39,264 nucleotides of DNA. Origin: Pseudomonadota bacterium (lineage in GTDB: Bacteria > Pseudomonadota > Gammaproteobacteria > Acidiferrobacterales > Acidiferrobacteraceae). The notes beneath the pieces are model-generated. The model worked only from the letters and a program-made list of their open reading frames with translations. It searched no databases and was not told where the DNA came from. The stretch spans positions 1 through 39,264 of the forward strand of contig JAKBUS010000021.1 of NCBI GenBank assembly GCA_021841585.1. Reading direction: 5' to 3'. This document shows, one piece after another, positions 4,492-25,000 of this stretch. Each line of letters opens with the position of its first letter. Position 1 is the first letter of the stretch. The translations under genes were made by a program, and so were the position numbers.

Positions 4492-4522
4492 GGCTTCCGG
4501 GTAGGGGGATCAGGAGGGCGTC

Positions 4523-6786: not shown

Positions 6787-6807
6787 CCGTCATATAAGGG
6801 GATGAGC

Positions 6808-8715
6808 ATGGCCAATGAGACGCACACCGCGGAGTCGAGCCGCACCTTCCGGCGTTACCGGGACGGGGACTCGCAGCCCGAGTCCTGGCAGGAATACATC
6901 TTCAAGGCCGGCTGGTCCTACAAGTGCCCGGTCTATGTGCAGCGCACGCCGACCTGCCAGAACGGCTGCCCGGCGGGCGAGGATATCCGCGGCTGGCTGG
7001 ACGTGGTGCGCGGCCTCGACAAGCCCGCCCAGGGTGTCACCTGGCAGGAGCATGCCTTCCGCAGGCTTACGCGCGCCAATCCGTTCCCGGGGATCATGGG
7101 CTATGTGTGCCCGGCCCCGTGCGAGGACGGGTGCAATCGCCGGGCGGTCGAGGATCGGGTCGGGATCAACGCCGTCGAGCAGTTCATCGGCGAGGCCGCG
7201 CTGAAGGCCGGCTTCACCTTCGCAAAACCGGCAAAGGAGAGCGGCAAGCGCGTGGCCATCATCGGCGGCGGCCCAGGCGGGCTTGCGTGCGCCTATCAGC
7301 TGCGCCTGAAAGGGCATGCCTGCACGATCTTCGAGTCGCGCGAAAAACTCGGCGGCATGCTGCGTTATGGGCTGCCCAATTACCGCACCCCGCCCGCCGT
7401 GGTGGAGGGCGAGATCCAGCGCATCCTCGATCTCGGCGTGACGGTCAAGACCGGCGTGCGCGTGGGCCAGGACGTGAGCTTCGCGGACATCGACCGCGAT
7501 TACGACGCGGTATTCTGGGCGATCGGCACGCAGGTCGGGCGCATCCCCGAGATCCCGGGGGCCAATGCCGAGAATTGCATAGGCGGTATCGAGTTCTTGC
7601 GCGAGTTCAACGAGGGGAAGCTGCCGTCGGTGCCGCGCCGCATCGTGGTCATAGGCGGCGGCGACACCTCGATCGATGTCACAACCGTGGCGCGCAAGAT
7701 CGGCGGGTTCTCGGGGATGAAGCCCGATGGTTCGCCGCTCACCTATACCGCCGACATGGTCACGCAGGCGGCCATCCACAGCGGCCAGAAGGTGACGCTC
7801 ACCTCGGTGCTGCCGACCAAGAAGCTGAAGGCCGCCGAGCGCGAGGTCGAGGACGCGCGCTCCCTCGATGTCGCGATCATCGGCAACATCATGCCGCTGT
7901 CGGTGACCCTCGACCGTGACGGACGGGCCTGCGGGGTACGCTTTGCGCCCTGCGAGCACGCCAAGGACGGCAAGCGCGTGCGCGCCGCCGGTGACGAGAT
8001 CGAGATCGAGGCCGATCTCGTGGTGTTCGCCATCGGCCAGATGGCCGACATGAAAGGCCTTGAGATGTTGGATAACGGCCGCCATGCCATCGCCCCGGGC
8101 CCCGGCCTGCAGGTCATAGGGTACCCCAAGCACTTCGTGGGCGGCGACATCATCGTGCCGCATCTGCTCGCGACCGCGGTAGGGCATGGGGCGGTGGCCG
8201 CCGAGGGCATCGATGCCTTCCTGAACGGCCAGCCGGTGGCGCGCCGCCCGCACGTCGACAAGCGGCATTTCGAGATCCGCGAGGGGCTACCGAAGGACGC
8301 CAAGCCCGTGGACGGCATGGTGACAAGCCCAAATGCGGTGCACAACTTCGAGAACCGTGCGCACCGCGAGGTGATCGAGGCAGACGCTTTGTTCCTCGCG
8401 CACTTCGCCACCACCCCGCGCATAGAGCGCACCGAGCGTAGGCTCTCCGAACTGTTCGCCGAGGGTGGCACGCGCATCGCCGTGCTCGACGAGGCGCAGG
8501 CGGTGGCCGAGGCCAAGCGTTGCATGAGCTGTGGGTTGTGCCTTGAGTGCGACAACTGCGTGGTGTTCTGTCCGCAGGTGGCGGTGAAGAAGGTGCCGCG
8601 TGACCAGAAGGCGCTCGGCTACTACGTGACCACCGACTACACGCGCTGCATAGGCTGTCACATCTGTGCGGATGTGTGTCCAGCGGGCTACATCCAGATG
8701 GGTCTGGGGGAGTGA
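6808..8715 (+). CDS. dsrL: DsrL, NAD(P)H:acceptor oxidoreductase of the Dsr pathway
   Basis: Iron-sulfur flavoprotein related to the glutamate synthase small subunit. It links DsrAB to NAD(P)+/NAD(P)H and is essential for sulfur oxidation in A. vinosum. Visible parts: an N-terminal cysteine-rich Fe-S region (TCQNGCPAGEDI and CPAPCEDGCNR), the FAD fold (IIGGGPGGLACAYQL), the NAD(P) fold (VVIGGGDTSIDV), and a C-terminal domain with two ferredoxin motifs (CMSCGLCLECDNC...CP and CIGCHICADVCP). An in-frame ATG at 6802 is possible, but AAGGGG at 6796-6801 abuts it. The same site is spaced correctly, six bases, for ATG 6808, giving 635 residues. It indicates oxidative Dsr metabolism. Confidence 0.95.
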   Translation: MANETHTAESSRTFRRYRDGDSQPESWQEYIFKAGWSYKCPVYVQRTPTCQNGCPAGEDIRGWLDVVRGLDKPAQGVTWQEHAFRRLTRANPFPGIMGYVCPAPCEDGCNRRAVEDRVGINAVEQFIGEAALKAGFTFAKPAKESGKRVAIIGGGPGGLACAYQLRLKGHACTIFESREKLGGMLRYGLPNYRTPPAVVEGEIQRILDLGVTVKTGVRVGQDVSFADIDRDYDAVFWAIGTQVGRIPEIPGANAENCIGGIEFLREFNEGKLPSVPRRIVVIGGGDTSIDVTTVARKIGGFSGMKPDGSPLTYTADMVTQAAIHSGQKVTLTSVLPTKKLKAAEREVEDARSLDVAIIGNIMPLSVTLDRDGRACGVRFAPCEHAKDGKRVRAAGDEIEIEADLVVFAIGQMADMKGLEMLDNGRHAIAPGPGLQVIGYPKHFVGGDIIVPHLLATAVGHGAVAAEGIDAFLNGQPVARRPHVDKRHFEIREGLPKDAKPVDGMVTSPNAVHNFENRAHREVIEADALFLAHFATTPRIERTERRLSELFAEGGTRIAVLDEAQAVAEAKRCMSCGLCLECDNCVVFCPQVAVKKVPRDQKALGYYVTTDYTRCIGCHICADVCPAGYIQMGLGE

Positions 8716-8716
8716 C

Positions 8717-9196
8717 ATGCACGCTCGCGCGGGGGTGCTGGCGGTCCTTTTGGTGGTGCTCGCGTTGGGTGCCGTGTGGGCGACCCACCAAGGTCCCGTG
8801 CCCATGCCGGTGATCCCGCGCGCCCCCGGGCACTGTGTGCTGCCGACTGCGAGCATGCGCCGCACGCACATGATGCTGTTGCGCGCCGTGCGCGAGGAGA
8901 TCGTGCGGCATGACGCGCGCGACACGCGCTTTCGGATCACGCATTGCGTGGCCTGCCATGTCGAGCATACCGCGAGCGGCCAGCCGATCCCGGTAAACGC
9001 CCCCGGGCAGTTCTGCGCGACCTGTCATACCTACGTCGGCGTGCACATCGATTGCTTCGCGTGCCACGCGGCGGTGCCGAGGAATCCCATGAAATTCGGT
9101 GGCATCGGCGGTTCGAATTCGGTGCAGGCGGCGTTTCGCATCCCACAAGCGCTGCGGGGCCGCTTTCTGTCCGGTGGCGCGGGAGGGGGACGATGA
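8717..9196 (+). CDS. dsrJ: DsrJ, periplasmic trihaem cytochrome c
   Basis: Periplasmic multihaem subunit of DsrMKJOP, anchored by an uncleaved N-terminal hydrophobic helix (residues 5-24). Exactly three haem c sites are present: C77VACH81, C100ATCH104 and C113FACH117. C40 in PGHCVLPT matches the unusual cysteine that can ligate one haem (His/Cys coordination) in A. vinosum DsrJ. The length is 159 residues. The ATG lies one base after the dsrL stop, and the end overlaps dsrO by four bases. Confidence 0.94.
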   Translation: MHARAGVLAVLLVVLALGAVWATHQGPVPMPVIPRAPGHCVLPTASMRRTHMMLLRAVREEIVRHDARDTRFRITHCVACHVEHTASGQPIPVNAPGQFCATCHTYVGVHIDCFACHAAVPRNPMKFGGIGGSNSVQAAFRIPQALRGRFLSGGAGGGR

Positions 9197-9972
9197 ACGA
9201 CGAACGACGCGGCCAGCCGTTGATTGACGCCGTCGCGGGAGACGAGGCGCCGGATTCCGCGCGCCGTCGGCTCCTGAAGATGGCCGGGGCGGCGGTGGCC
9301 CTGACGCTCGCGCCGGGGGTCACGGTACTCGCCCGGGATCTGGTCCTAAAGGGCGGACGCAAGGCGAGATCGCCGGTGCGCTATGGGCTTTTGATCGACG
9401 CCAATGCCTGCAAGACCGGGTGCGACGCCTGCGTGCGCGCCTGCCAGGACTACAACGGCCTGTCGCACGACCCGGGACCGGACAATGCCCAGTGGATCCG
9501 CAAGGTCACGATCACCGATCCCGGCACCGGGTTTACGCGCAGCTTTCCGGTCATGTGTCAGCACTGCGAGGACGGGGCGTGCGTGGACGTGTGTCCGACC
9601 GGCGCCTCGTTTAGGCGTCCCGACGGCATCGTGCTCGTGGACAAGCACCGTTGCATCGGCTGCCGCTATTGCCTCATGGCCTGCCCCTACAAGGCGCGCT
9701 CGTTCGTGGGGCGCGTGGTGACCGACCAGCGGCCCTGGGCGCCGCGCGGCAAGGGCACCGCCGAGGGCTGCACGATGTGTGTCGAGCGCGTGATGGCGGG
9801 CAAGCAGCCGGCGTGCGTGGCGGCCTGCCAGAAGGCCGGCCACAAGGCCATGATGTTCGGGAATCTGCATGACCCCAAGAGTGCGATCGCGGTGCGGCTC
9901 TCGAAGGTCGCGACCACGACCATACGCGCCGACCTCGGCATGGGGCCAGGCGTGCACTACCGGGGGATTTAG
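9193..9972 (+). CDS. dsrO: DsrO, periplasmic Tat-exported ferredoxin-like subunit
   Basis: HmcB/NrfC-type Fe-S protein that carries electrons between DsrJ and DsrP. The 259 residues start with a twin-arginine export signal (S22-A-R24-R25-R-L-L-K) and a hydrophobic stretch ending near LAPGVTVLA. Cysteine groups for up to four [4Fe-4S] clusters follow: ACKTGCDACVRAC, CQHCEDGACVDVCP, CIGCRYCLMACP, and CTMC with a distal CVAAC. The ATGA overlap with dsrJ couples translation. Confidence 0.94.
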   Translation: MNDERRGQPLIDAVAGDEAPDSARRRLLKMAGAAVALTLAPGVTVLARDLVLKGGRKARSPVRYGLLIDANACKTGCDACVRACQDYNGLSHDPGPDNAQWIRKVTITDPGTGFTRSFPVMCQHCEDGACVDVCPTGASFRRPDGIVLVDKHRCIGCRYCLMACPYKARSFVGRVVTDQRPWAPRGKGTAEGCTMCVERVMAGKQPACVAACQKAGHKAMMFGNLHDPKSAIAVRLSKVATTTIRADLGMGPGVHYRGI

Positions 9973-9998
9973 GGGTGGCCAGCGGGACCGGAGGAATT

Positions 9999-11264
9999 AT
10001 GACGAAGGTGGCCTATCGGGAGATCGCCGGGCAAAGCGCCGGCTACTGGGCAGCGGTGGTGGCATGCGCGCTCATGGCGGCGGTGGGCGTGGGCTCGGCG
10101 TTCTACATGCGCGCGGAAGGTCACCACGTGACCGGCATGAATAACCAGATCGTATGGGGCATGCCGCATGTGTTCGCGGTGTTTTTGATCGTCGCCGCCT
10201 CCGGGGCCTTGAACGTCGCCTCGATCGCCTCGGTGTTCGGGCGTAGCCTCTACAAGCCCCTGGCGCGCCTGTCGGGGCTGCTCGCGATAGCGCTGCTCAT
10301 CGGCGGTCTGTGGAACCTGGTACTCGATCTCGGCCGTCCCGGACACATCCTGGCGGCGGTGCTGTACCCGAATTTTCGTTCGATCTTTGCGTGGAACATC
10401 TATCTCTATACCGGTTTTTTGGTGATCGTCGGCTTTTATCTGTGGTTCATGATGGAGCGACGCCTAAACCCCCACACCCACAAGGTCGGGGTGCTTGCCT
10501 TCCTGTGGCGCCTGGTACTGACAACTGGTACCGGGTCCATTTTCGGGTTCCTCGCCGCGCGTAGTGCTTATGACTCCGCGGTGTTGGCGCCCCTTTTTAT
10601 TCTCACGTCCTTCGCCTTGGGCCTTGCGATCTTCGCGCTCGTGCTGGTGGCGGGGTTCGAGACCTTGGGACGGCCGGTGGGCGCACGCCTGCTGGCGCGC
10701 CTGAGGCAGCTTTTGGCGGTGTTCGTGGCCGCCGTTTTGTATTTCGTGGCGGTCTACCACCTGACCAATATCTACATGGCCGGCCATCGGGGCATCGAAT
10801 CGTTCGTGCTCCTAAACGGCGGTATCTACACGGGACTTTTCTGGCTCGGGCAGGTCGGCATCGGCGGGGCGGTGCCGCTCGTGCTATTGCTGCGCCGCGT
10901 ACCGCGCGATGACACCACGCGCTTGCGCCGCTCGCTTTTGGCGGGCGCGGCGGCGGTGGTGGCGGGCGGGCTGTGTCAATTCTACGTGCTCATCATCGGT
11001 GGCCAGGCCTACCCGCTCAAGATGTTTCCGGGGATGGTCGTAAGAAGCTCCTTCTATGACGGCGTGGTGCACAGCTACATCCCGCGCTGGCCGGAGACGG
11101 TGCTGGCGCTGAGTGGGGTGGCGGTCGCCGCCCTCATCGTCCTGATCGGCGTGCGCCTCCTGCCGTTTTTGCCAGAGGGCCTCGCAGACGAGGTGGTGAG
11201 CGCGCATGGCGCGCGGCCGCCGGCGGCGGAGGCCGAGACCGCTAAGACCGCGGTGGGCGCATGA
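9999..11264 (+). CDS. dsrP: DsrP, NrfD-like integral membrane subunit
   Basis: Polytopic membrane protein of the NrfD/PsrC family, the quinone-interacting partner of DsrO in DsrMKJOP. The 421 residues contain about ten hydrophobic helices, for example near residues 15-40, 50-75, 90-115, 125-150, 195-225, 235-260, 340-360 and 365-390. A GTG at 9975 is in frame, but ATG 9999 is preferred because GGAGGAATT directly precedes it. The gene ends with an ATGA overlap into dsrN. Confidence 0.92.
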   Translation: MTKVAYREIAGQSAGYWAAVVACALMAAVGVGSAFYMRAEGHHVTGMNNQIVWGMPHVFAVFLIVAASGALNVASIASVFGRSLYKPLARLSGLLAIALLIGGLWNLVLDLGRPGHILAAVLYPNFRSIFAWNIYLYTGFLVIVGFYLWFMMERRLNPHTHKVGVLAFLWRLVLTTGTGSIFGFLAARSAYDSAVLAPLFILTSFALGLAIFALVLVAGFETLGRPVGARLLARLRQLLAVFVAAVLYFVAVYHLTNIYMAGHRGIESFVLLNGGIYTGLFWLGQVGIGGAVPLVLLLRRVPRDDTTRLRRSLLAGAAAVVAGGLCQFYVLIIGGQAYPLKMFPGMVVRSSFYDGVVHSYIPRWPETVLALSGVAVAALIVLIGVRLLPFLPEGLADEVVSAHGARPPAAEAETAKTAVGA

Positions 11265-12694
11265 CCGCGCGTGTGTATCTCTCGGCCGCCCACAAGTCCT
11301 CGGGCAAGACCACGGTCTCGATAGGTCTCGCGCGCGCGCTCAAGGACCTCGGGCACGTCGTCCAGACCTACAAGAAGGGCCCCGATTATATCGATCCGTT
11401 GTGGCTGACCGCGGCCTCGGGACGTGCCTGCCAGAACCTCGATTATCACACCATGGACGCAGGCGAGATCGGCGCGCTCTACGAGCGGGCCGCGATCGGC
11501 GCCGATTGCCGGTTGATCGAGGGGAATAAAGGGCTCTACGACGGGGTGGCGCTCGATGGCAGCAACAGCAATGCCGCGCTCGTCGCCCAGCTCGCCACCC
11601 CGGTGGTGCTCGTGATCGACTGCCGGGGCGTGAGCCGCGGCGTGGCGCCGCTTGTGATCGGCTACCGGCACTTCGATCCGTCGATAGCGATTGCCGGCGT
11701 GGTGTTGAACCGCGTGGGCGGGGCGCGTCACGAGGGCAAATTGCGCGCGGTGTTGCAGGAGTATACGGACGTGCCGGTGCTCGGCGCGGTGCATGAATCG
11801 GCGGACCTCGCCATCACCGAGCGGCACCTGGGGCTCGTGCCGAGCGGCGAGTGGGAGGGGGCCGAGGCGCTTATCGCGCGCCTGGGGCGGGCAGTCGCGG
11901 CGCAGGTCGATGTCGAGGCGATCGCGCGCTTAGGTGAGGATGGGCGCCCGCCCCAAAGCGTACCGGCCGCGCGCGCCGGGGGCCGGGACGTGCGCATCGG
12001 CATCGCCCGTGACCGGGCGTTCAGCTTCTATTACCCCGGCGATCTCGAGGCCCTGGAGGCCGCCGGCGCCGAGCTTGTGTTCTTCGATACCCTGAACGAT
12101 ACCCGTCTACCCGAGGTCGACGGCCTGTTCCTGGGGGGCGGGTTCCCCGAGACCGAGGCCGACTTGCTTGCCGCCAATACCGCCATGCGCGCGGCCATAC
12201 GCGCGGCGATCGAGGATGGACTTCCCACCTACGCCGAGTGCGGCGGGCTCATGTATCTCACGCGCGGCCTCAGCTACGAGGGGCGCACGCACCCCATGGT
12301 CGGCGTGATCGCCGCCGATACGGTCATGGAGGCCAAGCCCGCGGGGCATGGTTATGTGCGGCTTGCGGCCACGGCCCACCACCCCTGGGCGCGCGGGGCG
12401 CTCGACCACGGTCCGCTGCCGGCCCATGAATTCCACTATTCCCATCTCGTGAATATCGCCCAGGACACGACCTACGCCTACGAGGTCACGCGTGGTACCG
12501 GCATCTCCAAAGGCCGCGACGGCATCGTGTACAAGAACCTGCTGGCGGGCTACGCGCACCTGCGGGATGTGGCAAGCTGCCCGTGGACCGCGCCGTTCGT
12601 GGGCTTCGTGCGCGCGGCGCGTGCGCGGCGCCTGTCCCCGGCCTGGGCTCGGCCTGTGCAAACAGGCGAGGCCCGCCATGCCCAAGCCTTATGA
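11261..12694 (+). CDS. dsrN: DsrN, sirohaem amidase (CobB/CbiA-like)
   Basis: Glutamine-dependent amidotransferase of the cobyrinic acid a,c-diamide synthase family; in the Dsr pathway it amidates sirohaem for DsrAB. The N-terminal half is a P-loop ATPase (SAAHKSSGKTT, residues 4-14, then KKGPDYIDP). The C-terminal half is a class I glutaminase domain with nucleophile C327 in YAECGGLMYLTRG and a late histidine in HEFHYSH. The length, 477 residues, is near the family norm. It is coupled to dsrP by ATGA and overlaps the next gene by 17 bases. Confidence 0.93.
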   Translation: MTARVYLSAAHKSSGKTTVSIGLARALKDLGHVVQTYKKGPDYIDPLWLTAASGRACQNLDYHTMDAGEIGALYERAAIGADCRLIEGNKGLYDGVALDGSNSNAALVAQLATPVVLVIDCRGVSRGVAPLVIGYRHFDPSIAIAGVVLNRVGGARHEGKLRAVLQEYTDVPVLGAVHESADLAITERHLGLVPSGEWEGAEALIARLGRAVAAQVDVEAIARLGEDGRPPQSVPAARAGGRDVRIGIARDRAFSFYYPGDLEALEAAGAELVFFDTLNDTRLPEVDGLFLGGGFPETEADLLAANTAMRAAIRAAIEDGLPTYAECGGLMYLTRGLSYEGRTHPMVGVIAADTVMEAKPAGHGYVRLAATAHHPWARGALDHGPLPAHEFHYSHLVNIAQDTTYAYEVTRGTGISKGRDGIVYKNLLAGYAHLRDVASCPWTAPFVGFVRAARARRLSPAWARPVQTGEARHAQAL

Positions 12695-14111
12695 CGTCGC
12701 GGTCATAGGTTGCGGAGCCGGGGGCTATCAGGCGGCCATTAGCGCCGCGCAGTGCGGGGCACGGGTGGTACTGATCGAGCGCGAGGGGGCCGGCGGGGCC
12801 TGCCTTAATCGCGCCTGCGTGCCGAAGAAGGCCGTGGCGCATGTAGCCTCGGTACTGGCGGTGGCGCACGGCCTGCTCGGGCGCGGGCTTGCCGGCGGCA
12901 TGCGCGGCGACCTTGCGGCGATGATGGCCCATGAGCAGGCGCTGGTCGCCGATCTGCGCCGCGGACTGCCGCAGCGCTTAAAGGCGCTTTCCATCGATAT
13001 GGTGACCGGGCACGCGCGGCTTGTGAGCGCGCATGGGATCGCCGTGACCGGGGAGCGTGGGACCGCGACCATCGAGGCACGGCGCGTGATCCTGGCGGCT
13101 GGCGCCCGCCCCCGTGCGCTCCCCGCCTGCCCCATAGACGGCGAGCGCGTGGTCGCCGCCGACCGCCTGATCCCCTTGCTCGCCTGCGAGCCCCGGCGGC
13201 TTCTGTGCCTGGGTGGCGGGGCCACCGGGGTCGAGGCCGCGTTCCTGTTCCGCGCGTTCGGCGCGGAGGTCACGCTCGCCACCCGCGGGGAACGGCTGCT
13301 GGCGAGGCCCATGATCTCGGAGCGCGCCGCGCGGCTCCTGGAGCGCCGGCTTTCGGAGTCGGGGGTGACGATCCTAAAGAAGGCGTCGGTGAGCGCCACC
13401 CAAGTCGATGACGCCGGCGTGACGTTAAGCTTTCAGGATGGACGCGAGGGGCGCTTCGATCGGGTGCTGGTGGCGGTGGGCTGCGTGCCGCGCGCCGATG
13501 ATATCGGCTACCGCGCCCTTGGGGTGCAATGCGACGGCGAGGGCTTCGTGGCGACCCGCGAGACTTTGGAGACCAGTGTGCCCGGTATCTATGCCGTGGG
13601 GGACATGAAGGGCGGCCCGATGACCGCAGCCGCGGCCCTGCACGATGGGCGCATTGCCGGCGAGAACGCGGCACTCGATGGCCACAGGCGGCGTAACTAC
13701 CACCAGGTGCCGATGGTGATCGACTCGATCCTGCCGTTGGCGGCCGTGGGGTTGTCCGAGGATTTAGCCGAGCGCGCCGGGTTCGCGCCGGAGGTGGTCT
13801 ATATTCCTTATGGGGCGTCGGTGAAGGCCCGTACCCAGGGCGCGAGCGCGGGCTTCATCGAAATCGTGCATGATGAGGAGACCGGGCAGATGCTGGGGGG
13901 CTGTGTCGCCGGGGGTGGGGCCGATGAGCTTGTGCACCTGGTGCTCGCCGCGTGCCGCTCGCGCCGCGGCCTATGGTCGCTTGCCGATCTCGATTATGGA
14001 CATCCATCGTATGGCGAGGAGCTGGGGGCGGCGGTGAGCGCGCATCTTGCCGGATTCATGCGCTCGCGGCCCACGGTATTCCGGCCGGGGATCTACGCAT
14101 CCGGGGATTGA
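12678..14111 (+). CDS. Dihydrolipoamide-dehydrogenase-like flavoprotein disulfide reductase
   Basis: Class I pyridine nucleotide-disulfide oxidoreductase, 477 residues. It shows an FAD fold (IGCGAGGYQAA), a redox-active pair C42-X4-C47 in GACLNRACVPKK, a nucleotide-binding fold (GGGATGVEAAFL), the second FAD motif (GIYAVGDMKGG) and the C-terminal H442-X4-E447 dyad (HPSYGEE). All catalytic parts of a lipoamide or glutathione reductase relative are therefore present. After the second nucleotide-binding strand the sequence reads VTLATRGERLL, with no acidic residue, which hints at NADPH over NADH. The 17-base overlap with dsrN places it in the dsr operon, where A. vinosum has dsrR/dsrS. The substrate is unknown; a DsrC or DsrEFH disulfide, or lipoamide, are guesses. 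Confidence 0.85.
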   Translation: MPKPYDVAVIGCGAGGYQAAISAAQCGARVVLIEREGAGGACLNRACVPKKAVAHVASVLAVAHGLLGRGLAGGMRGDLAAMMAHEQALVADLRRGLPQRLKALSIDMVTGHARLVSAHGIAVTGERGTATIEARRVILAAGARPRALPACPIDGERVVAADRLIPLLACEPRRLLCLGGGATGVEAAFLFRAFGAEVTLATRGERLLARPMISERAARLLERRLSESGVTILKKASVSATQVDDAGVTLSFQDGREGRFDRVLVAVGCVPRADDIGYRALGVQCDGEGFVATRETLETSVPGIYAVGDMKGGPMTAAAALHDGRIAGENAALDGHRRRNYHQVPMVIDSILPLAAVGLSEDLAERAGFAPEVVYIPYGASVKARTQGASAGFIEIVHDEETGQMLGGCVAGGGADELVHLVLAACRSRRGLWSLADLDYGHPSYGEELGAAVSAHLAGFMRSRPTVFRPGIYASGD

Positions 14112-14152
14112 AGACAGGGTTTTCAGGATTCGAACGCAGGGACGGGGAAGGG

Positions 14153-14158
14153 TATAGT
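14153..14158 (+). promoter_or_regulatory. Possible -10 box upstream of the narX-like gene
   Basis: TATAGT lies in the 90-base gap after the flavoprotein gene, about 43 bases before the kinase ATG. The -35 region 18 bases upstream (TTCGAA) is poor. It may let the kinase-regulator pair be expressed apart from the dsr operon. No terminator is evident between them, so read-through is also possible. Confidence 0.3.
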
Positions 14159-14201
14159 GGCCCATGTATAGGGATTGGCGGGGCTTGGGCGCGAGGTCAA
14201 C

Positions 14202-15827
14202 ATGGAAGGGTCCTTTTGGCAGAGGATCGGTGTTTTGGATAGGCGCGGTGGCGTCGATGGCACGCCGCCGGCCAGCGGCTGGGCGCGGCCCAGGCGGCTG
14301 TGGCTCATGTGGATGGCGCCGACCCTGCTCACGGGCCTGCTCGCCACGGCCATGGTCGCGGTAGCGCTCGATGGGGGCTCGCATCCCGTGCTGACCCACG
14401 ATCTGGCGCTCGCCGCACTCGCCGCCGCGCTCTTGGTGGCGGCGGTGCTGTGGGTGGCCACGGTGCGGTCGCTGTGGCGGCCGCTCGCCCATTTGCGGCG
14501 TTGGGCGATGCGCGTGCGCGATGGCAATCTCTCGGCGCGCATCCCCGAGGATCGCGCGGTGGGTGAGTTTGCGGAACTGGCCTCGGATGTGAATGCCCTG
14601 GGCGAGCGCCTGAAGACCCTCACACAGGAGCGCGCCGGTGGGGACTCGCGGGTGATCGCCCGCTGGCTCGCGGTCCTAAACGCCATCACCGCCGGTATCG
14701 CCTCCTCCCAGGACCTAGACGAGCTCCTGCCGCGGTTCCTGTTTACACTGCATAGCGCGGGCGAGGTGCGCGGCGGGATCGTGCGGCTCCTGACCGGCGA
14801 TGGCCACCTGCGACTGGTGGCGAGCATCGGGCTGCCCGATGACATCGTCGAGCACGAGCGGCGTGTGGCGCTTGATTGTTGCCTGTGCGGGCAGGCGGTG
14901 GGACGCAGGACCCTGAGCGTGGGCCAGGACCTGAACGCCTGCTGCACCTCTTGGGGCCAGAACCCGTTCCCGGACGAGGACCTCGTGCTGCTTGCCATCC
15001 CCTTGCGCTACGACGGCCGCGTGGTGGGGCTTTATAACCTGTTCATGGAGCGCGCGCGCGTCATAGGGCAAAGCGACGTCGAAGATCTCCTGTTGGGGCT
15101 CGGCCAGCACCTGGGGGCGGCGATCGAGAAGATGCGCCTGCAGGACGAACGCCGGCAGCTGTCGCTCTTGCAGGAGCGCATGGCGATCGCCCACGAATTG
15201 CATGATTCGCTCGCCCAGACCCTGGCGAGCCTGCGCATCCAGGCCCAGGTCCTGGGCGAGACCATAGAGCCGGATAGCTATTCGGCGACGCGTACCGAGT
15301 TTGCCCGCCTGAGCGCCGGTCTTGAGATCGCGCATAAGGAGGTGCGCGGGTTGATCCGTAACTTCCGCGCCGGCGGTGCCGAGGGCGGGCTGTTACCGGC
15401 GCTGGACGCGGCTATCGCGCGTTTCAAGGAGGAGACCGGTATCCCCGTGTATGTGCAGAAGGATTGGCACGGGGCGTTGCCGGTGACCCACGAGACCCAT
15501 GTCCTGCGTGTGATTCAGGAGGCCCTGGCCAATATCCGCAAGCACGCCCATGCGCAGACGGTGCGCGTGCTGCTGCAGTCCGAGGCCGGCGGGGATTATA
15601 AGGTTCTGATCGAAGACGATGGCGAGGGCCCGGTATCAGCGGCCGAGCGCGCCGATCGGGATGATGGGCACTTCGGACAGACGATCATGCGCGAGCGCGC
15701 GCATGCGATCGGGGGCGAGTTGCGCGTGGAGCACGAGGCCGGGGAGGGCACGCGAGTATGGCTCACATTCCCCGATCCGGCGCGCGTGACCGAACGGGCG
15801 GTGGCGGTGGCGGAGGTGGCGCGGTGA
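14202..15827 (+). CDS. NarX-family sensor histidine kinase with cysteine-rich GAF domain
   Basis: Sensor kinase of 541 residues. Two transmembrane helices (about 30-52 and 65-85) are separated by only a dozen residues, so the periplasmic nitrate-binding domain of NarX is missing. HAMP (about 86-140), GAF (about 160-310), HisKA_3 with phospho-acceptor H334 in HELHDSLAQ, and HATPase (about 430-530) follow. The GAF region carries C226, C227, C229, C247 and C248, suggesting an internal redox, metal or Fe-S sensor. The start ATG follows GAGG at 14193-14196. The end overlaps the regulator by four bases (GTGA). Position right after the dsr genes suggests control of sulfur metabolism, which is inference. 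Confidence 0.85.
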   Translation: MEGSFWQRIGVLDRRGGVDGTPPASGWARPRRLWLMWMAPTLLTGLLATAMVAVALDGGSHPVLTHDLALAALAAALLVAAVLWVATVRSLWRPLAHLRRWAMRVRDGNLSARIPEDRAVGEFAELASDVNALGERLKTLTQERAGGDSRVIARWLAVLNAITAGIASSQDLDELLPRFLFTLHSAGEVRGGIVRLLTGDGHLRLVASIGLPDDIVEHERRVALDCCLCGQAVGRRTLSVGQDLNACCTSWGQNPFPDEDLVLLAIPLRYDGRVVGLYNLFMERARVIGQSDVEDLLLGLGQHLGAAIEKMRLQDERRQLSLLQERMAIAHELHDSLAQTLASLRIQAQVLGETIEPDSYSATRTEFARLSAGLEIAHKEVRGLIRNFRAGGAEGGLLPALDAAIARFKEETGIPVYVQKDWHGALPVTHETHVLRVIQEALANIRKHAHAQTVRVLLQSEAGGDYKVLIEDDGEGPVSAAERADRDDGHFGQTIMRERAHAIGGELRVEHEAGEGTRVWLTFPDPARVTERAVAVAEVAR

Positions 15828-16468
15828 AGGTGTTTTTGATTGACGATCATGCATTGTTCAGGAGCGGGCTCGAGCACCTGCTCGTGCGCCGCGGCATCGA
15901 GGTGGTGGCCACCAGCAACGACGGCGAGCAGGCCCTGGCGCCTATCCAGGCGACCTGCCCCGATATCGTCCTACTCGACATCCGCATGCCCCGGATCGGT
16001 GGCATCGAGACCTTGAAGGCGCTGCGCGCGGGCGGCGTGACCGCGGCCATCGTCATGCTCACGACCTCGAGCGAGGAGGCCGATCTCGTGGCCTCGCTGC
16101 GCTACGGGGCGCGCGGCTATCTCTTGAAGGACATGGAGCCCGATAGCCTAGTTGCGGCGCTCGCGCGCATCGAGGCCGGTGAGATGGTGGTGGCCCCGGA
16201 GTTTGCGCCGGTGCTCGCGCACTTTATCCAGAGCGGACCGCAGGCCCTGACCGCCTCGCACGCCTTCAGCGAACTCACTCCCCGCGAGCTCGAGATCCTG
16301 GGCCACCTCGGCGACGGCCAGAGCAACAAGCTGATCGCCCGTGATCTCGGGATATCCGAGGGCACCGTGAAGCTCCACGTCAAGGCCATCCTGCGCAAGC
16401 TCAAGCTCACATCTCGTGTCCAGGCGGCGGTACGCTCCGTGGAAGAGGGTTTGAGCCGCAAGGGCTAA
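15824..16468 (+). CDS. NarL/FixJ-family response regulator
   Basis: Two-domain transcription regulator of 214 residues. The receiver domain (1-120) has acidic residues D7 and D8 and phospho-acceptor D52 in LLDIRMPR. A LuxR-type helix-turn-helix (about 148-210) follows: LTPRELEIL, NKLIARDLGISEGTVKLHVKAIL. The start is GTG 15824, whose last bases overlap the kinase stop codon, so the two proteins are made as a pair. It is the cognate partner of the upstream kinase by position. Targets are not known; the dsr operon is the obvious candidate. Confidence 0.93.
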   Translation: MKVFLIDDHALFRSGLEHLLVRRGIEVVATSNDGEQALAPIQATCPDIVLLDIRMPRIGGIETLKALRAGGVTAAIVMLTTSSEEADLVASLRYGARGYLLKDMEPDSLVAALARIEAGEMVVAPEFAPVLAHFIQSGPQALTASHAFSELTPRELEILGHLGDGQSNKLIARDLGISEGTVKLHVKAILRKLKLTSRVQAAVRSVEEGLSRKG

Positions 16469-16993
16469 AATCACGGGGTGGGGCGGTATTGGACGGCACC
16501 CGGTGCCCGATCGTGAGGGCGCCTTTCCTGTCGCCCTACGGGAAGCGGCGGGCCGGCCCGGGCGCGGGTCGCGAACGGGGCTTTTCAGAGTCCCGGTATC
16601 CGGCATGACGCAAGGCTTACGGCGCAAAGCGCCGGGCCCCGTCGGTCCCTGCCCACAGGCCTGCTCGGCGCACTCGCCCGGCCTCGTGAGGGCGATGAAC
16701 GGCTATTAGACCGTTCTTCCCGTCTGAAACCGGTTTTCCTTGATATTTCAGTTGGCTATCTGGACAACGCGGTTCCTCGTACAGTCTACACCGGGAAGCT
16801 CGCCACGCACCCTTCGCCACTAGGTAGGGGAGGTTGGCGCGCTTGGTGTATGCGGCGGTGTTTCGAGGCGCGTGGTTGGGCGTAGGGGAGCACCTTGGGG
16901 CTTGCGCCTATCTTGGGCGAAAGCGCCGGGCCGAGGGAGCGCATGAATGTCTAGCTGAGTGTGTGCTTCGCTAGCCTAGCGGAGGGCCAATGT
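16469..16993. other. Non-coding stretch with small palindromes
   Basis: No credible gene on either strand. Several inverted repeats are present: GGCACC-C-GGTGCC (16495-16507), GAACGG/CCGTTC (16697-16716, loop of eight) and the palindrome AAACCGGTTT (16727-16736) followed by TTCC. One of these may end narL transcription, but none has a good T-run. CGCTAG-C-CTAGCG lies just before the ribosome site of the next, broken gene. The short open frames here have no recognisable protein character. Confidence 0.4.
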
Positions 16994-17522
16994 ATGGGGC
17001 ATATGTGGCAGGATGCGCCGGTTTACTGCGTGCTGGCTCAGGTGCGGTTCAATCCTATCCTGAAACTCGACTCCTTTGTTGGCGCCATTCAAGACTCCTT
17101 GCGCCGCGAGCATCCAGACTTTCCGCGTGTAACGACCATGACGCTGGTTGTTGCGCCAAGCGGGGTGGGGTGCGTGCCCCACCACAACCGACTTTCGAAA
17201 ATCGTTATCTGCTGAAGAATAGGGACAAAACGGCGGGCTTATAGCCTCGATACCGCCTCGCTTGCCTTTCAGTCAACAGACTATCCGAGGCTTGGCGTTT
17301 TCCGGGGCGTCTCTCAAGGGCCTTGCTGCCGTAAACGATGCGGTCGGGCCGAGCTTTGTCGAGCGGGCAGGAATCCGTTACTTGAACGCCGTGTATCCGG
17401 GGCCAGGAGCGGCGCTAGGCGCCCATCTCATACCGGAGGTTCGGGGGCTCACTCAGAAACGACAGGGGACTTTGACGCATACCTTCTCCAAGACGCGAAC
17501 CGCAGAAGGCGCGGGAGCATGA
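16994..17522 (+). pseudogene. Frameshifted TIGR04255-family gene
   Basis: ATG 16994 has a good ribosome site (GGAGG at 16981-16985), and the first frame reads as the N-terminus of TIGR04255 proteins (DAPVYCVLAQVRFNPILKL...), stopping at 17215. Similarity continues in other frames: ENRYLLKNRDKTAG up to about 17240, then YSLDTASLAFQSTDYP at about 17241-17290, then NDAVGPSFVERAGIRYLNAV and TLTHTFSKTRT to about 17515. That needs at least three frame changes. The C-terminal half of the family is missing. The family function is unknown. Identification rests on remembered family sequence, not a search. Confidence 0.6.
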
Positions 17523-17774
17523 GAGGGTGAGGCGCGGCCTTGAGGGCAGCGTTTGCGCCGCTAGCGCGCCCAGGAGGCGATTGCCGTCCCATCGTGCGCA
17601 GACGAGAGGTGATCGCCCCGTTTGTCGCCGCTTGGACGGATGGACAGAGTTCCGCCATGCGGGTTCTACCGCGCCATCGAGCGCCGTGCCAGGAGGACGC
17701 CACCGTATCGGCCGCCCCATTTAGGGCCGATGACCCGCTTGTTGGCGCAGGGGGCCGGGGCCCCCGCTTTCCGT

Positions 17775-19184
17775 CTATCCGGCGGCGCGCAGGTCGCTTG
17801 CCTGTACGTCGCTGCTTTGCGCCCAGCGATCATGAAGGCGCACGACCTCGCCTATGACGATGAGCGTGGGCGGCTGGATGGCCTCGTGGGCGACGATGTC
17901 GGGGAGGTCTGCGAGGGTGCCGGTGAGCACCCGTTGTCCGGGCGTCGTGCCCCGCTCGATCAACGCCGCCGGGGTGGAGCGCGGCAGGCCGTGGGCCATG
18001 AGCTCGCGGCTTATGGTCGAAAGCGCCGCGACCCCCATGTAGAACACCAGGGTTTGGTGCGGTTGGGCAAGGGCCCGCCAGTTGAGGGTCAAGTCGTCTT
18101 TGCGGCAGTGGCCGGTGACAAAGACGCAGGACTGGGCGTAATCGCGATGCGTGAGCGGCAGATGGCCGTAGGCCGCACAGCCGAGTGCCGCGGTGATGCC
18201 GGGTACCACCTGGAAGGGGATACCGGCCTCCACGAGGGCGTCGATCTCTTCGCCACCACGCCCGAAGATGAAGGGGTCGCCGCCCTTGAGGCGCACGACC
18301 CGTCGGCCGCTCGCGGCGAGCTCCACGAGGATCTCGTTGATCCGCCCCTGGGGCACGGCGTGGTGCCCGGCGTCTTTGCCGACATCGATGCGCTGGGCCT
18401 CGCGCCGGCAGAGCGCGAGCACGGGGGCTGCCACCAGGCGGTCATGGACGACGACGTCGGCCTCCTGCATGAGGCGCAGGGCGCGCAGGGTGAGTAGGTC
18501 CGGATCGCCGGGGCCCGCGCCGACCAGGGACACGAGCCCCACGCCGGCGCCTTCCGGCTGCGCGAGCTCGCGCTCGAAGGCCTCGGCCGCCGCGTTCTCC
18601 TCGCCGGCGAGCAGCAGTTCGGCGGCCGGCCCCTGGAGCACGCGCTCCCAGAAGCGGCGCCTCTGGGTGGGCGAGGTGATCCGCTGACGGACCTCGGGGC
18701 GGTGGCGGGCCATGAAGGCGGCAAGCGCCCCATAGGTCGACGCCACCAGGGTCTCCAGGCGCGCGCGCAGGAGGCGCGCGAGGACCGGCGAGGTCCCACC
18801 GCTCGACACGGCGACCAGCACCGGCGAGCGGTCGATGATCGACGGCATAATGAATGTACAAAGTGCCGGATGGTCGACCACGTTGACCGGCACCCGGGCG
18901 GCGGTGGCGGCCTGATAGACGCGCTTATTCGTGGACGCGTGATTGGTGGCGGCGATCACGACGCGCGCGCCCGCGACGTCGGCGACCGTGAAGACCCGCG
19001 CGATATGGGTGATGGTGCCGGCGGCCTTCGCGGCCGCGAGCTTTGGGCAAAGCTCCGGGGACACGACCACCACGTGGGCGCCCGCGCCCTGGAGCAGGCC
19101 GACCTTGCGTGCCGCCACCTCGCCGCCGCCGACCACCAGGACACGGGCCGAACGGATGTCGAGAAAAATCGGTAAGTAGTCCAT
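17775..19184 (-). CDS. cysG: Sirohaem synthase CysG (bifunctional)
   Basis: Makes sirohaem from uroporphyrinogen III. The N-terminal domain (about 1-150) is the NAD-dependent precorrin-2 dehydrogenase/ferrochelatase (YLPIFLDIRSARVLVVGGGEVAARK). The C-terminal domain (about 210-460) is the SAM-dependent uroporphyrinogen III methyltransferase (VSLVGAGPGDPDLLTLRA, VRLKGGDPFIFGRGGEE, YMG). The 469-residue length matches the fused enzyme. The frame is open to a TTG at 19202, but ATG 19184 matches the family start MDYLPIF. It faces the dsr genes from the opposite strand and supplies the cofactor that DsrAB uses and DsrN modifies. It could equally serve assimilatory sulfite or nitrite reductase. Confidence 0.94.
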   Translation of the reverse strand: MDYLPIFLDIRSARVLVVGGGEVAARKVGLLQGAGAHVVVVSPELCPKLAAAKAAGTITHIARVFTVADVAGARVVIAATNHASTNKRVYQAATAARVPVNVVDHPALCTFIMPSIIDRSPVLVAVSSGGTSPVLARLLRARLETLVASTYGALAAFMARHRPEVRQRITSPTQRRRFWERVLQGPAAELLLAGEENAAAEAFERELAQPEGAGVGLVSLVGAGPGDPDLLTLRALRLMQEADVVVHDRLVAAPVLALCRREAQRIDVGKDAGHHAVPQGRINEILVELAASGRRVVRLKGGDPFIFGRGGEEIDALVEAGIPFQVVPGITAALGCAAYGHLPLTHRDYAQSCVFVTGHCRKDDLTLNWRALAQPHQTLVFYMGVAALSTISRELMAHGLPRSTPAALIERGTTPGQRVLTGTLADLPDIVAHEAIQPPTLIVIGEVVRLHDRWAQSSDVQASDLRAAG

Positions 19185-19746
19185 AAAGCGTCTCTTCGCC
19201 AAGTTTAGACACAGTCCACACCGTAGGGGCTTTTCAGGCTATACCCCCGTAGGGATACGGGGCTTAAGGCGTGGCCGCGGCCCGGGCATCCCATGCGGTG
19301 GTCCTGGCGGTGTTCGTGGCACGGCACGGCGATTGCCCGTGCCCGCCCGGTCGGCGGCACCAAGGCCGTGGTCGCCGTCATGAGTCAATACGATCGAAGG
19401 CCCAAGGCGCGCCACGCGCACGGCATAAGGCCGTTTCATGGCAACGGAATATCGAAAACCTCTTATAGTGGCAGGCCGCGGCCGATATGGGACACGCTTT
19501 ATCAGGCGGATCATTTGCTGGTATCCATTGGTTTTTGGCTTATGCCGGAGGGCTACCTTTTCCGAAAAAATTTCTTGTGATATGAAATGAATGCGGACTT
19601 TTCTGGAATGAAAGGCGCAAAATATCTATAAAGTATAAGAATGGTCTAAAAAAGAATAAAACCGGCAGGACCGGCTTTTGTGCGCGGCGTCATTGACGCC
19701 GGCGCTCATGGACAGAAAAGCGGTGATAAAAACAGCGGGAGGGTGT
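19185..19746. other. Intergenic region with AT-rich segment and hairpin
   Basis: The divergent gap between cysG and the membrane protein gene. I see no convincing gene. The part from about 19500 to 19680 is strikingly AT-rich against the surroundings, with stretches such as AAAATATCTATAAAGTATAAG near 19620, and probably holds the promoter of the downstream gene. CGGCGTC (19685-19691) pairs with GACGCCG (19695-19701) around ATT, forming a tight leader hairpin 45 bases before the ATG. Confidence 0.4.
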
Positions 19747-20842: not shown

Positions 20843-22039
20843 TCAACGGAGGGCGCCCGAAGGGCCCGGGTCCGTCGCCCGCGCCAGCGCCTGTTCCACC
20901 CATCGAAATCCGATGCGCTCCTGTTCGAGGCGCAGTTGCGGGCGGATGCGATTGTCGCGCAAAGCGTCATAGAGCGCGCGCTCCTCGGGGGTGAGCCGCG
21001 CAAGGTCGCGCGCGGTCGGCCGGTCCTCGTGTCCCCACTGGTATTCGAAGGCAAACAGCGTCGCTCTATCCATGAGCAGCGACTCGGCCTTCGGGAACAC
21101 GGCGCGCAGTTGGTCGAGGATGGCAAAGCCGTGGGTGTCGATGTCGCCCCAGTAATGGAGGCGCGCGTGGGCAAGCCAGGGGATGTCCTTTAGCATGCTA
21201 AATCCGTAGCCCGCGCCGAACAGGGCGATCGCCCCCGGGACTTTCGGGAGGGCCAGGAAGTTCACCTCGTTTTCGGTGATGATGACCTGTCGGGCCCCGG
21301 GGTCCAGGCGCGCGAGGCTTGGCGCGTCGAGGGTGATGTCAGCGCCGATGGCGGCAAGCGGCAGGCCCTCATCGAGTGGTCGCAGGCGCACGCGCACGGG
21401 CTTTTCGCGAAAGCCGTAGCGTGCGGCGAACGCCGCCACGCCGGTGGCCGCCGATGCGCGTAGGGGGTCTGGAAGCGCGCGATCCAGAAGTTCGGCGAGC
21501 ACCCCGCGGTGGGCCTCCAGGAACTTGCTGTCACCGCCCGGCAGGTCCATCTGGCGCAGATAGATATCGGGTCGCGGGTGCTCGCGGATCCAGGCGATGA
21601 CCGCGAGCAGGCGCCCCCAGGATGGCGCCAGTTCGAGGGTGCGTAGCGGGTGGCGCGCCAGCCAGTCGAGCAGTGCCGGGCACGCCTCTTCGGTGGCCGC
21701 GAGCAGTTTTGCGAATTCATCGGCGTCGGGGGTCTTGCCGATGAGCGCCAGGGCGTCTTTCCGGCTATCGATCCAGATCTCGGCGGGCAGGGCGTTGGTA
21801 CCTAGGGTGCGGTGGCGGACGGTGCGCATCACCACGCGTACATGGGGGAGGGCGCGCAGGTTAGCCGCCCACGCACGGACTGCGTCGAAGTGTTCGCCGA
21901 TCTCGCGCGAACTTGGGCCCTTGCATGGCAGGCGCCACGGGAAGTCCGAGCGGCCGGTGACCATGGCCGATAACAGCGCGCCGCGCGCGAAATGCCGGGC
22001 GACGTGCGCGCGGATGTCCGCAAGCGAGGTCCAGCTCAT
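20843..22039 (-). CDS. jetD: JetD, Toprim-like nuclease of Wadjet
   Basis: Effector nuclease of type I Wadjet, which cuts circular plasmid DNA after loop extrusion by JetABC. The 398 residues fit DUF3322 (N-terminal arm) plus DUF2220 (C-terminal Toprim-like). Acidic metal-site motifs are visible: ITENEVNF at about 251-258, [10 protein letters not shown] at about 294-303 and RLEQERIGF at about 372-380. ATG 22039 overlaps the jetC stop by four bases, so it is the last gene of the operon. All expected acidic residues appear intact. Confidence 0.93.
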
Positions 22040-25000
22040 CCGGCGATCCGGGCCTTTTCGGCGCGATACTCCTCAATCGTCAGATTGCGGAGTTTGGAGG
22101 ACTGCCCGTCTTCATTGTGCACGAAGCCCACGCACGCGACATACGGTTCGATGATGTGGATCTTCTGCAGGGGAGTGACGATCAGGATCTGGAGGTTGAG
22201 TTCCTGAAAGAGCCGCAGCCCGTATTGCGCCGACTCGTCGGAGCCGCGCCCAAAGGCCTCGTCTATGACTACGAAGCGAAACGAGCGCGAGCGCGTCGCC
22301 CCCCACTCCAGGCCGAATTGATAGGCGAGGCTTGCGGCGAGCACCGTGTAGGCGAGCTTTTCCTTCTGGCCGCCGGATTTGCCACCCGAGTCGGAATAGT
22401 GCTCGTATTCGCTCTCGTCCTCGCGCCAGCGCTCGCTGGCCGCGAACACGAACCATGCGCGCACGTCGGTGACCTTCGCGGTCCACCGCCGGTCGGCCTC
22501 CGATTGCCCCTCGCGTCCCCGGAAGCGCTCGATGATGCGCTTGACTTGCAGAAACTTGGCCTCCGAGTACTGGGCGTCGTCGGAACCGGTGAGCGCCCCC
22601 TCGGTGCACGCGCGCAGCTCGCCCTGGAAATCGCGAATGTCGGCGTCGGGCGTGCGTTCGGCCTCCAGGACGATGTAGCGGCCGGGGTTATAGTCGATCT
22701 TTGTCAACGAACCGTTCACGCGATCGATGCGCTCCTTGATGAGCTCGCGCTCGCGCGCGAGCTGCGACTGGAAGTTCGCGACCTCGCGGATGGTGTTCTC
22801 ATTCAAGAGTTCCTTGAAACGTGTTTCGAAGCCGGGCAGACCGTCGGCGATCAGGTCGTCTAGCATTTTGCGGTATTCAAAGCCGGCCTCGACTGCGGCG
22901 TCGATCTCGGCGGTCTCAAGCCTGTAGGCCTCGCGATAGGAGGCCATGGCCTGAATGATGCGATCACGCAGTCGCGCAAGCCTGCGCGCGCATTCCGCGC
23001 CGTGCCGCCCGACCGCCGAGCGCATTTCGTTGGCGCGATTCTCGCAGGACTCGAGCGTGAGCGTGTGGCCGCCCAGGATCTCGGCGGACAGGCCGTCTAA
23101 TGTGGCGAAGGCCGTGGCATGGCGCGCGAACGCCGGGTCGTCGAGGACCTCCTGGACCGCCTGGCGCAGCACCTTGGTGTCGCTTCGGCGCTGTTCGCAC
23201 TTGGCGCGCAGGTCGCGCTCGGCCTCGAGTTCATGGTCGCGTCCCTGACGTTCGGCGCTGACTTCCTTTAGGCGCAGGGTCAGTTGTCTTAGGGCGTCGG
23301 AGGCCGATTCGAGCTTGTGACGCTCGTCTTCGAGCGCGGCCACTTCGGCGGCCGCGGTACGCCAGTCGAGCTCCCGAAAGTCGCGGTACTCGTCGAGGCG
23401 CGCAAGCAGGGTCAGGCGTTCCCTGAGGCTCCCATGGGCGGCCTGGGTGCGGGTGAGGCGCGTCGCGCATTCGGCGATCTCGCCTTCGAGCGCGCGCGCC
23501 TGGGCCTCCAGGGCGGCGATCTTGGCGGTGTTGGTCCAGCCGAGGATGTAGCGGCTGCGGTCCGTCAGGCGATGGCGGTCGTCTTTCTCATGGCGGTCGC
23601 CTAAGCCCTTGATCTGGCCGGCGCGGGTGAGCGCGCGGGTCTCGCGCTGGAACTGCTCGTAGGTGTCGCAGCAGGCGACATCGAAGCGCTGCGCGAGCTC
23701 GCGCTCGAGCCATTCGTAGAACGGCGAGTCCGGCCGGATCTCGAGCTTGCGCACCAGGGAATCCGGGTGCATGGAGATGGCCGCCGCGCGTGCCGCCGGG
23801 CGGACCCGAAAGTACACGATGCGGCCCTTCAGGTCGGTCTTGTCCACCCACTGCGCGACCTCGGCGTAACGGGCATCGGGGATCAGTAGCGACAGGCCAA
23901 AGCCGTGGAGCAGACGCTCGGCCGCCCCCTCCCACGCGTCCTCCTCGGGGCGCACCTGCAGGAGTTCGCCGGCAAACGGCATGTCTGCCTCGCGCGCGCC
24001 GAGCGCTTGGCAGAGCGCGGTGCGGATGGCCGCGTGGCGCGAATCGATGTTGCTGCGCCGCGCCTTCAGGTCGGTGATCTCGGCGGTGAGGATGTCATGC
24101 CGCCCGCGGGCCTCGCGCAGCGTCATGGCCTGCTCGGTAAGGGTGTTCTGGAGGGCCGCCTCCTCGCTGTGGGCGAGGTCGGCGTGGCGCGTGAGGCGCG
24201 CGCGTTGCGCAAGAAACGCCGCCTCGTCTTCGGCCGGCGCCTCGCCCAGGGCCGCGCCGAGTTCTCCGTAGTGTCGGGCCTTGTGCGAGCGCGCGTCACG
24301 CTCGCGCCCTTTGCGCTCGATGTCGTGGGCGAGCCGTTCCAGGCGGTCGCCGCCGTTGTCGGCGATCTCGCGCTTCAACTCATCCTCGGTTATGCGCAGG
24401 CCGTCGCGGGCCTCGGTAAGGCGCGCCACCGCCCGCTCGCGCCGCCCCCATTCCTGGTCGATATGGGCGAGGCGTTTATCGAGCAGGTCGGCCTTCAGGC
24501 GCGCGAAGTAGGGGTGCACGGCCTCGCGCGCCGCCTCCCAGGCGCCGAGATGGTCCTGGGTCTTGGCGTGTTCGTCGAGATGGGCCACGAGTGGCGTCAA
24601 GAGCTCGACCTGGCGCCGGGCCTTTAGGACCGCTTCGTGGGCGCGGTTTAGGTTGTCGAAATGGTCGATCAGGGCCTGGATGCGCGGGGCCACGTCGAAC
24701 GGTTCGAGCATGTGGTGGCGCACGAAGTCGGTGAGGTTGCCGACCGACTTCATGGAGACCGTCTGGTGGAACAGGTCGAGGGCCTGTTCGTTGTCGATCC
24801 CAAAGCGCCGCCGAAACCACGCCCCATAGGGTGGGAAGCTGTCGAAGACCTCGGCGCCCTGGCCGCGCAGGCGTTTACGCAAGGTCGTTATATCCGATCC
24901 GAAGTGCGCGAAGTCCTCGGCGATCGCAAGGCCGCGCTCGGCACCGACATAGAAGCGTGCCGGCTGGCCTTGCGGATCCTTGATCCAGAACACCTGGGCG

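Follow-up and report, generated by a model that had tools for sequence, protein, structure and literature searches.

A NarX/NarL-related two-component system, probably dedicated to the dsr genes of gammaproteobacterial sulfur oxidizers, and its predicted operator before dsrA

The closest described relatives of the two-component system examined here are NarX-NarL and NarQ-NarP of Escherichia coli. The system, a kinase-regulator pair, lies beside the dsr genes in a 39,264-nucleotide stretch of contig JAKBUS010000021.1 (assembly GCA_021841585.1, Acidiferrobacteraceae), and this whole stretch is referred to below as the window. As far as the available parts of PMC3519889 and PMC1805755 go, the E. 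coli systems share with the window pair a HAMP domain, a GAF-like centre, a HisKA_3 domain and a near-identical recognition helix in the regulator, and a cluster of cysteines in the middle part of NarX has already been published. The window kinase also carries a central cysteine cluster, and the 7-2-7 palindromic layout of the binding site appears to be common to both. The window pair differs from NarX in lacking the periplasmic nitrate domain with its P-box and in having a CxC...C cluster rather than one of the C-x4-C-x2-C type. It differs from NarXL in being linked to dsr and not to nar genes, in the position of its kinase on a separate side of the kinase tree, and in its predicted site, which is mostly TATCCC, unlike the NarL consensus TACYYMT.

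Another NarL-family pair, NreB-NreC (a sulfide sensor in Bacillus licheniformis and an oxygen sensor in Staphylococcus), controls sulfur-oxidation genes according to the accessible portion of PMC9918477; it differs in sensing through a PAS domain, in belonging to another phylum, and in its targets, sqr and pdo. The sulfane-sulfur repressors SqrR, SoxR, sHdrR and CstR/YrkD likewise bring sulfur oxidation under cysteine-based control (excerpts of PMC12423496 and PMC9918477), but these are one-component repressors and not kinases. In the parts seen of the open-licence full-text literature, a scope that leaves subscription journals mostly outside, no transcription regulator is named for reverse dsr; the IscA-like protein DsrR is described, in the portion of PMC11406059 available, as a participant in dsr regulation.

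The pair consists of the following features:

14202 to 15827, plus strand: sensor histidine kinase of 541 amino acids, NarX-related and without a periplasmic sensor domain (domains, family matches)
14709 to 15128, plus strand: GAF domain of the kinase, residues 170-309 (Pfam GAF_2, AlphaFold2, GAF folds in the PDB)
14877 to 14945, plus strand: cysteine cluster C226-C248, including the widespread triad C227/C229/C247 (sequence, alignments)
15824 to 16468, plus strand: NarL-type response regulator of 214 amino acids, its GTG start overlapping the kinase stop (Pfam, NCBIfam, invariant helix)

An earlier note had described a NarXL-like pair, and both proteins bear this out: a membrane kinase overlaps a NarL-type regulator, as domain and family matches confirm. 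The kinase contains HAMP (residues 88-138), GAF_2 (170-309; 38 bits against the Pfam cut-off of 28.6), HisKA_3 (325-390) and HATPase_c (431-526) domains. Judged by family scores, its HisKA_3 and HATPase core is related to NarX and NarQ (NCBIfam NarQ 160 bits, NarX 137 bits), with the equivalog cut-offs of 553 and 578 lying far above. The absence of a periplasmic sensor domain, which the note had also claimed, agrees with the spacing of the two hydrophobic stretches, read by eye as about 10 residues apart; no periplasmic nitrate-binding domain or P-box is seen between them, whereas the long NarX relatives have this domain. All five cysteines of the kinase (C226, C227, C229, C247 and C248) fall at residues 226-248, in the short part of the GAF domain where the note had placed them. 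No other HisKA_3 match was found in the 2.57 Mb of its own genome. The regulator has Response_reg and GerE domains and matches NarL best in NCBIfam (217 bits, under the cut-off of 250). Its recognition helix, TVKLHVKA, carries L for one V and A for the last H of TVKVHVKH in NarL, and TVKLHVK (K183, L184, H185, V186 and K187) is invariant in 133 homologues.

The genes upstream are the presumed target:

652 to 14111, plus strand: dsr cluster (dsrA, B, M, K, L, O, P and N among others), the last gene being lipoamide-dehydrogenase-like (NCBIfam and Pfam; some names by place)

The pair is strongly associated with these genes. We surveyed 274 genomes of the class, defining a long kinase as one with a GAF domain and a kinase core. 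The 90 kinase genomes among them were selected with a manual cut-off near E 1e-56 and include some matches that span the GAF domain and kinase core only, the weakest match counted being that of G109 at E 4.8e-56; for dsrA (94 genomes) the threshold was E 1e-30, and fragments are counted. Kinase and dsrA occur together in 83 genomes, the kinase only in seven, dsrA only in 11, and neither in 173 (Fisher p 7e-49, with genomes treated as independent of kinship). Of the 11 genomes with dsrA only, three (G039, G097 and G180) carry the regulator together with a short kinase, and in a fourth, G233, the kinase is cut by the contig end. A wider draw from the phylum, in which 249 genomes were searched, gave the kinase (E at most 1e-60) in one besides its own genome.

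Each of 141 kinase loci (60, 80 and the window) was also compared for its neighbourhood, 132 of them being unique at 99% kinase identity. Of these unique loci, 109 have 3 kb or more of upstream sequence; 99 of the 109 are linked to dsr, and 98 have dsrN on the same strand no more than 4 kb upstream. The regulator follows the kinase in 113 of 115 loci. Eight of the ten unlinked loci are in genomes with dsrA elsewhere, the other two (in G134 and G236) in genomes without dsrA. The linkage across relatives thus proves tighter than could have been known from the window. The statement that the pair comes directly after the dsr operon holds if the lipoamide-dehydrogenase-like gene (12675-14111, between dsrN and the kinase, ending 90 bp 5' of it) is taken as the operon's last member; otherwise this gene intervenes. 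A small IscA-like (DsrR-type) gene, named by eye, occupies a similar position in 56 loci.

A conserved palindrome was found upstream of dsrA, where the note had advised looking for sites, and a second copy lies before a siroheme synthase gene:

569 to 584, plus strand: predicted operator TATCCC-CTCT-GGGGCA, one mismatch, 67 bp 5' of the dsrA start (palindrome scan)
19242 to 19257, minus strand: predicted operator TATCCC-TACG-GGGGTA, no mismatches, 39 or 57 bp 5' of the TTG or ATG start of cysG (palindrome scan)
17775 to 19202, minus strand: cysG-type siroheme synthase, presumed second target (Pfam)

The dsrA upstream regions of 41 of the 83 genomes with kinase and dsrA, picked for having upstream sequence and not randomly, were scanned. 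A plain NarL consensus showed little enrichment (mean score 10.95 against 10.40 when shuffled; controls 11.08 against 10.50), and the recurrent palindrome was noticed by eye, before the unbiased dyad count. In that count TATCCC-N4-GGGATA ranks first among perfect hexamer dyads with spacers of 0-12, being present in 13 of the 41 regions; the best of 20 shuffles reached 2. The palindrome TAYCCCNNNNGGGRTA (TAYCCC-N4-GGGRTA) is found with no mismatches in 20 of the regions, with at most one in 31, and with at most two in 40, while 30 mononucleotide shuffles gave means of 0, 0.13 and 2.6 at these thresholds and maxima of 1 and 5 at the latter two. It ends 143-278 bp 5' of the automatically chosen dsrA start in 37 of 40 regions, the distance in the window being 67 bp. 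In 2.26 Mb of sequence the 141 kinase loci, most of which stop short of the region before dsrA, hold 21 sites with at most one mismatch. Its layout is 7-2-7, and NarL sites are likewise 7-2-7 inverted heptamers. Several genomes have two dsrA copies; the sites at four second copies have 1, 2, 2 and 3 mismatches. Scans for sigma-70 promoters at positions 400-700 and 14000-19700 found nothing.

Since the pair adjoins dsr in many sulfur oxidizers and the conserved palindrome precedes dsr, the pair probably controls dsr, and we regard the window pair as probably a dsr-dedicated two-component system related to NarX/NarL. Comparison of genomes lends good support to such a dedicated pair and its predicted operator. 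The linkage, co-occurrence, domain make-up, cysteine triad, palindrome and distribution of the palindrome are read directly from the sequences, and the linkage, the co-occurrence and the predicted operator before dsrA (652) support the suggestion made in the note that the pair is a candidate regulator of sulfur oxidation.

In the lineage of the window a second target is presumed. The cysG site (19242-19257) is the only perfect copy in its own genome, a perfect site stands at cysG in five near relatives (L095, L101, L102, L103 and L260), and, judged by open reading frame geometry alone, the two sites in the window are the only ones of 11 in the genome (at most one mismatch) that appear promoter-placed. 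Perfect sites away from dsrA were inspected in seven fetched stretches: in G207 one lies before cysG, in G080 one precedes an operon whose last gene is cysG, and in G034 (locus L262, 2745-5769) one lies directly 5' of a gene for a 999-residue PhsA-like molybdoprotein, which we take to be possibly the sulfite-oxidizing SoeA; the other four show no clear pattern. Because the predicted operator precedes both dsrA and cysG, and siroheme is the cofactor of DsrAB, the sulfite-reductase operon and the siroheme supply may be controlled jointly. In the mechanism that we propose, a pair without a periplasmic nitrate domain holds a fixed place at the dsr operon's end in many sulfur-oxidizing Gammaproteobacteria. 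Its membrane-tethered kinase would read an internal signal through the GAF domain, the likeliest such signal being the redox or persulfide state of the Cys-x-Cys...Cys triad, and would phosphorylate the regulator, which in turn would bind TAYCCC-N4-GGGRTA before dsrA and, in this lineage, also before cysG.

The kinship with NarX and NarL, and the likeness of the palindrome to NarL sites, would also fit a true nitrate or nitrite sensor that happens to lie next to dsr and links sulfur oxidation with nitrate respiration. Nitrate reductase genes were searched for in 80 of the 83 genomes with kinase and dsrA (all except G099, G109 and G238): narG is over the cut-off in 18 and napA in 34, so that 44 have one or the other. 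In G267 a perfect palindrome lies close to narG, in G014 one lies close to napA, and in the portion seen of PMC12423496 sulfur regulators of Hyphomicrobium act on narQL. This alternative is nevertheless highly improbable. The window kinase, as read by eye, has no periplasmic domain or P-box; neither narG nor napA is over the cut-off in its own genome or in 36 of the 80, a few of which hold fragments; and narG (with narK) is found near only one of the 132 unique kinase loci (E. coli queries). With E. coli queries, these loci also have no nirB, nrfA, or napA above 40% identity nearby; the search for nitrite and nitric oxide reductase genes covered nirB and nrfA. In G207, a sister species, a long NarX encoded separately lies near narG and has a NarX-like cysteine cluster. 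For the closer relatives, the two refuting observations named in the note, cysteines not conserved among orthologues and orthologues mostly beside nitrate respiration genes, do not apply. The partly available genome description of Allochromatium vinosum (PMC3368242) lists NarX/NarL (Alvin_1057/1058), with nitrate reduction genes not evident there; this NarXL may be the same dsr-linked system.

The GAF domain, through which the input would come, is modelled by AlphaFold2 (residues 148-318) as a confident GAF fold with a mean predicted local distance difference test score (pLDDT) of 88.8. Foldseek with this model returns GAF domains of the PDB, including free-methionine sulfoxide reductases, and the nearest solved domains by sequence are the GAF domains of PtsP and DevS; DevS/DosS thus shares the fold, but DevS uses haem. 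In the model C227 and C229 stand at the start of, and C247 within, two short helices between strands, roughly the position of the ligand in GAF domains. A short profile built on the cysteine region aligns C229 with the Cys of the VCG motif in free methionine-R-sulfoxide reductase, a weak hidden Markov model match (E 0.015 for Staphylococcus aureus 3ksf; E 0.0034 for a Klebsiella GAF protein with the same motif) in which C227 falls on Gly and C247 on no Cys. That protein is an enzyme of GAF fold, and we take its VCG Cys to participate in catalysis.

The earlier note had treated the five cysteines together. Three of them, C227, C229 and C247, form a widespread triad; the other two lack conservation. 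Every one of the 30 best loci has C229 and C247, and 26 have C227 (a Cys stands one place earlier in the remaining four), a conservation of these three greater than chance; six have C226 and two have C248. C229 and C247 are also invariant in alignment A2, and all three triad cysteines in alignment A3. Among 80 named loci the full triad is present in 71 of 71 unique ones, a biased figure, the loci having been ranked by GAF similarity. The fair measure is a count over 88 of the 90 kinase genomes (all except G109 and G208), in which C227 is found in 66, C229 in 63, C247 in 68, and the full CxC...C triad in 58 (55 of 81 genomes with dsrA, three of seven without). All five cysteines occur in 12 of the 132 unique loci, and these 12 are the window and its kin; the five-cysteine cluster as one unit was rejected on this account. 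The triad as a dsr-specific invention was likewise rejected, the triad being found in the narG-linked locus L091 and, in G014 and G107, in long kinases of NarX type. A cysteine cluster of another kind lies in this region of E. coli NarX, and the long NarX kinases of these sulfur oxidizers also have a cluster of their own there.

A kinase tree was built by a quick search with the cysteine columns excluded and rooted on NarX by choice (rows G226b and G109k omitted). It sets the 88 kinases apart from 16 NarX-type ones (Shimodaira-Hasegawa-like approximate likelihood ratio test, SH-aLRT, 94). On the NarX side the long, triad-bearing kinases from G014 and G107 are basal, and the kinase of G236, which has a NarX-like periplasmic part, is the first branch of the clade of 88. 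The triad requires 13 changes on this tree, four or five of which are forced by well-supported branches, and many losses fall on long branches. On the plainest reading, the triad would predate the dsr linkage and would have been lost on several occasions. L091, the locus of the G236 kinase, may represent an intermediate stage between the nitrate systems and those of dsr.

The cysteines hint at internal chemistry and, by themselves, give no pointer to sulfur. The signal is the least certain part of the proposal. A thiol or persulfide is our first guess, held at somewhat short of an even chance; to our knowledge no persulfide- or sulfane-sulfur-sensing chemistry is known for NarX kinases. The same dsr regulator might instead sense oxygen or redox state through an iron-sulfur (Fe-S) cluster or another metal bound by the triad. 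The CxC...C geometry, the presence in NarX of a cysteine cluster of other spacing, and the use of Fe-S by Staphylococcus NreB are consistent with this. NreB-type sensing, however, involves four cysteine ligands and a bound cluster, whereas the window-kinase family has three widespread cysteines per chain, and C229 aligns, weakly (E 0.015) and with C247 on no Cys, with the VCG Cys of a thiol-chemistry GAF domain; an Fe-S or other metal signal is on balance unlikely. Some other signal, or none, is doubtful.

Several observations weigh against a dedicated dsr regulator with a cysteine sensor, and some of them concern its output. At the threshold of one mismatch, 10 of the 41 dsrA upstream regions have no palindrome, and none was found before dsrA in G097, which has the regulator and a short kinase, or in G014. 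In 50 kinase genomes there are 54 perfect copies, 23 of them immediately before dsrA, and the remaining 31 are close to background (22 for the backward pattern in the same 50). The genome of the window is not enriched, with 11 sites at up to one mismatch against 21 for the backward pattern, while 30 genomes without kinase and dsrA have 11 perfect copies against three backward. A large regulon is unsupported, because perfect copies elsewhere approximate background and the genome itself is unenriched; the signal is at dsrA. Nor is the palindrome specific when taken alone, because perfect copies occur elsewhere in 21 of the 50 kinase genomes and in nine of the 30 without kinase and dsrA. These copies would fit a palindrome read by another transcription factor, the linked pair regulating something else. 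That seems very unlikely in view of the NarL-type 7-2-7 layout and of the five genomes with dsrA in which the regulator was not found (G032, G131, G142, G177 and G255; G070 and G079 were left out), all five of which, from only three families, have no palindrome (best matches with three or four mismatches). G039 and G180, which keep the regulator with a short kinase, have perfect sites.

The other unfavourable points concern the kinase. Eleven dsrA genomes have no long kinase, so dsr can function without one, and G039 (where the kinase is dsr-linked), G097 and G180 have short kinases without a GAF domain; such open frames of 274-327 residues, with the regulator adjoining, lie in L247 (14054-14956), L248 (9138-10118) and L250 (4672-5493). 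The full triad is missing in 30 of the 88 genomes (no cysteine in the region in 11, one in nine, two in six, and four in other spacing in four), and the triad-bearing, long NarX-like kinase of L091 lies near narG and narK in a genome, G236, without dsrA. Because the triad is missing in these 30 and GAF-less short kinases exist, the cysteines are not the sensor input everywhere. They might be structural or vestigial in the same dsr regulator, its input arriving through the membrane and HAMP, quinones or another GAF ligand. The 13 changes on the tree and the dsr-linked, GAF-less kinase of G039 favour this, as does the palindrome, which is present at up to two mismatches in all 12 triad-less genomes examined (seven at up to one); because triad-less genomes keep it, the output side appears independent of the triad. 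Against a vestigial role, two triad cysteines are invariant in the best 30 loci at about 40% identity, and many triad-less rows are on long branches, so that function may have changed there. We consider such a role decidedly unlikely, and retain a dsr regulator with cysteine-based input as the preferred reading.

Names within the dsr cluster differ in their basis: dsrA, dsrK and dsrO are over NCBIfam cut-offs, dsrM and dsrP match under the cut-off, the names dsrL and dsrN come from place together with matches to general models (oxidoreductase and CobB), and dsrB is named from place alone. DsrA of the window (652-1929) is 73-74% identical to DsrA of G032 and G177, both without the kinase, and 59-65% identical to 13 other DsrA sequences in fetched stretches. 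A rhodanese-like gene lies 3' of the pair in 52 loci (for example L114, 11747-12232), and a small LexA/S24-like gene on the opposite strand lies downstream of the regulator in 29, both named by eye. Further along the window (20843-27498, minus strand) is JetD of a Wadjet defence system (Pfam JetD_C, DUF3322), followed by open reading frames of 1156, 209 and 484 residues that may be the remaining Wadjet genes, JetD being the only one scanned.

Reverse dsr is a main sulfur-oxidation route in free-living and symbiotic Gammaproteobacteria, and the conserved kinase, regulator and predicted operator make its control directly testable. A bolder reading, which we put forward tentatively as possible, is that a nitrate-respiration switch was turned into the dedicated master switch of reverse dsr in many Gammaproteobacteria, with the triad in the GAF pocket sensing cytoplasmic sulfane sulfur or persulfide and with dsr and siroheme coordinated through a re-tuned NarL box. 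If true, it might explain the NarXL annotated in A. vinosum. A 'NarXL' annotation in sulfur oxidizers may not mean nitrate sensing.

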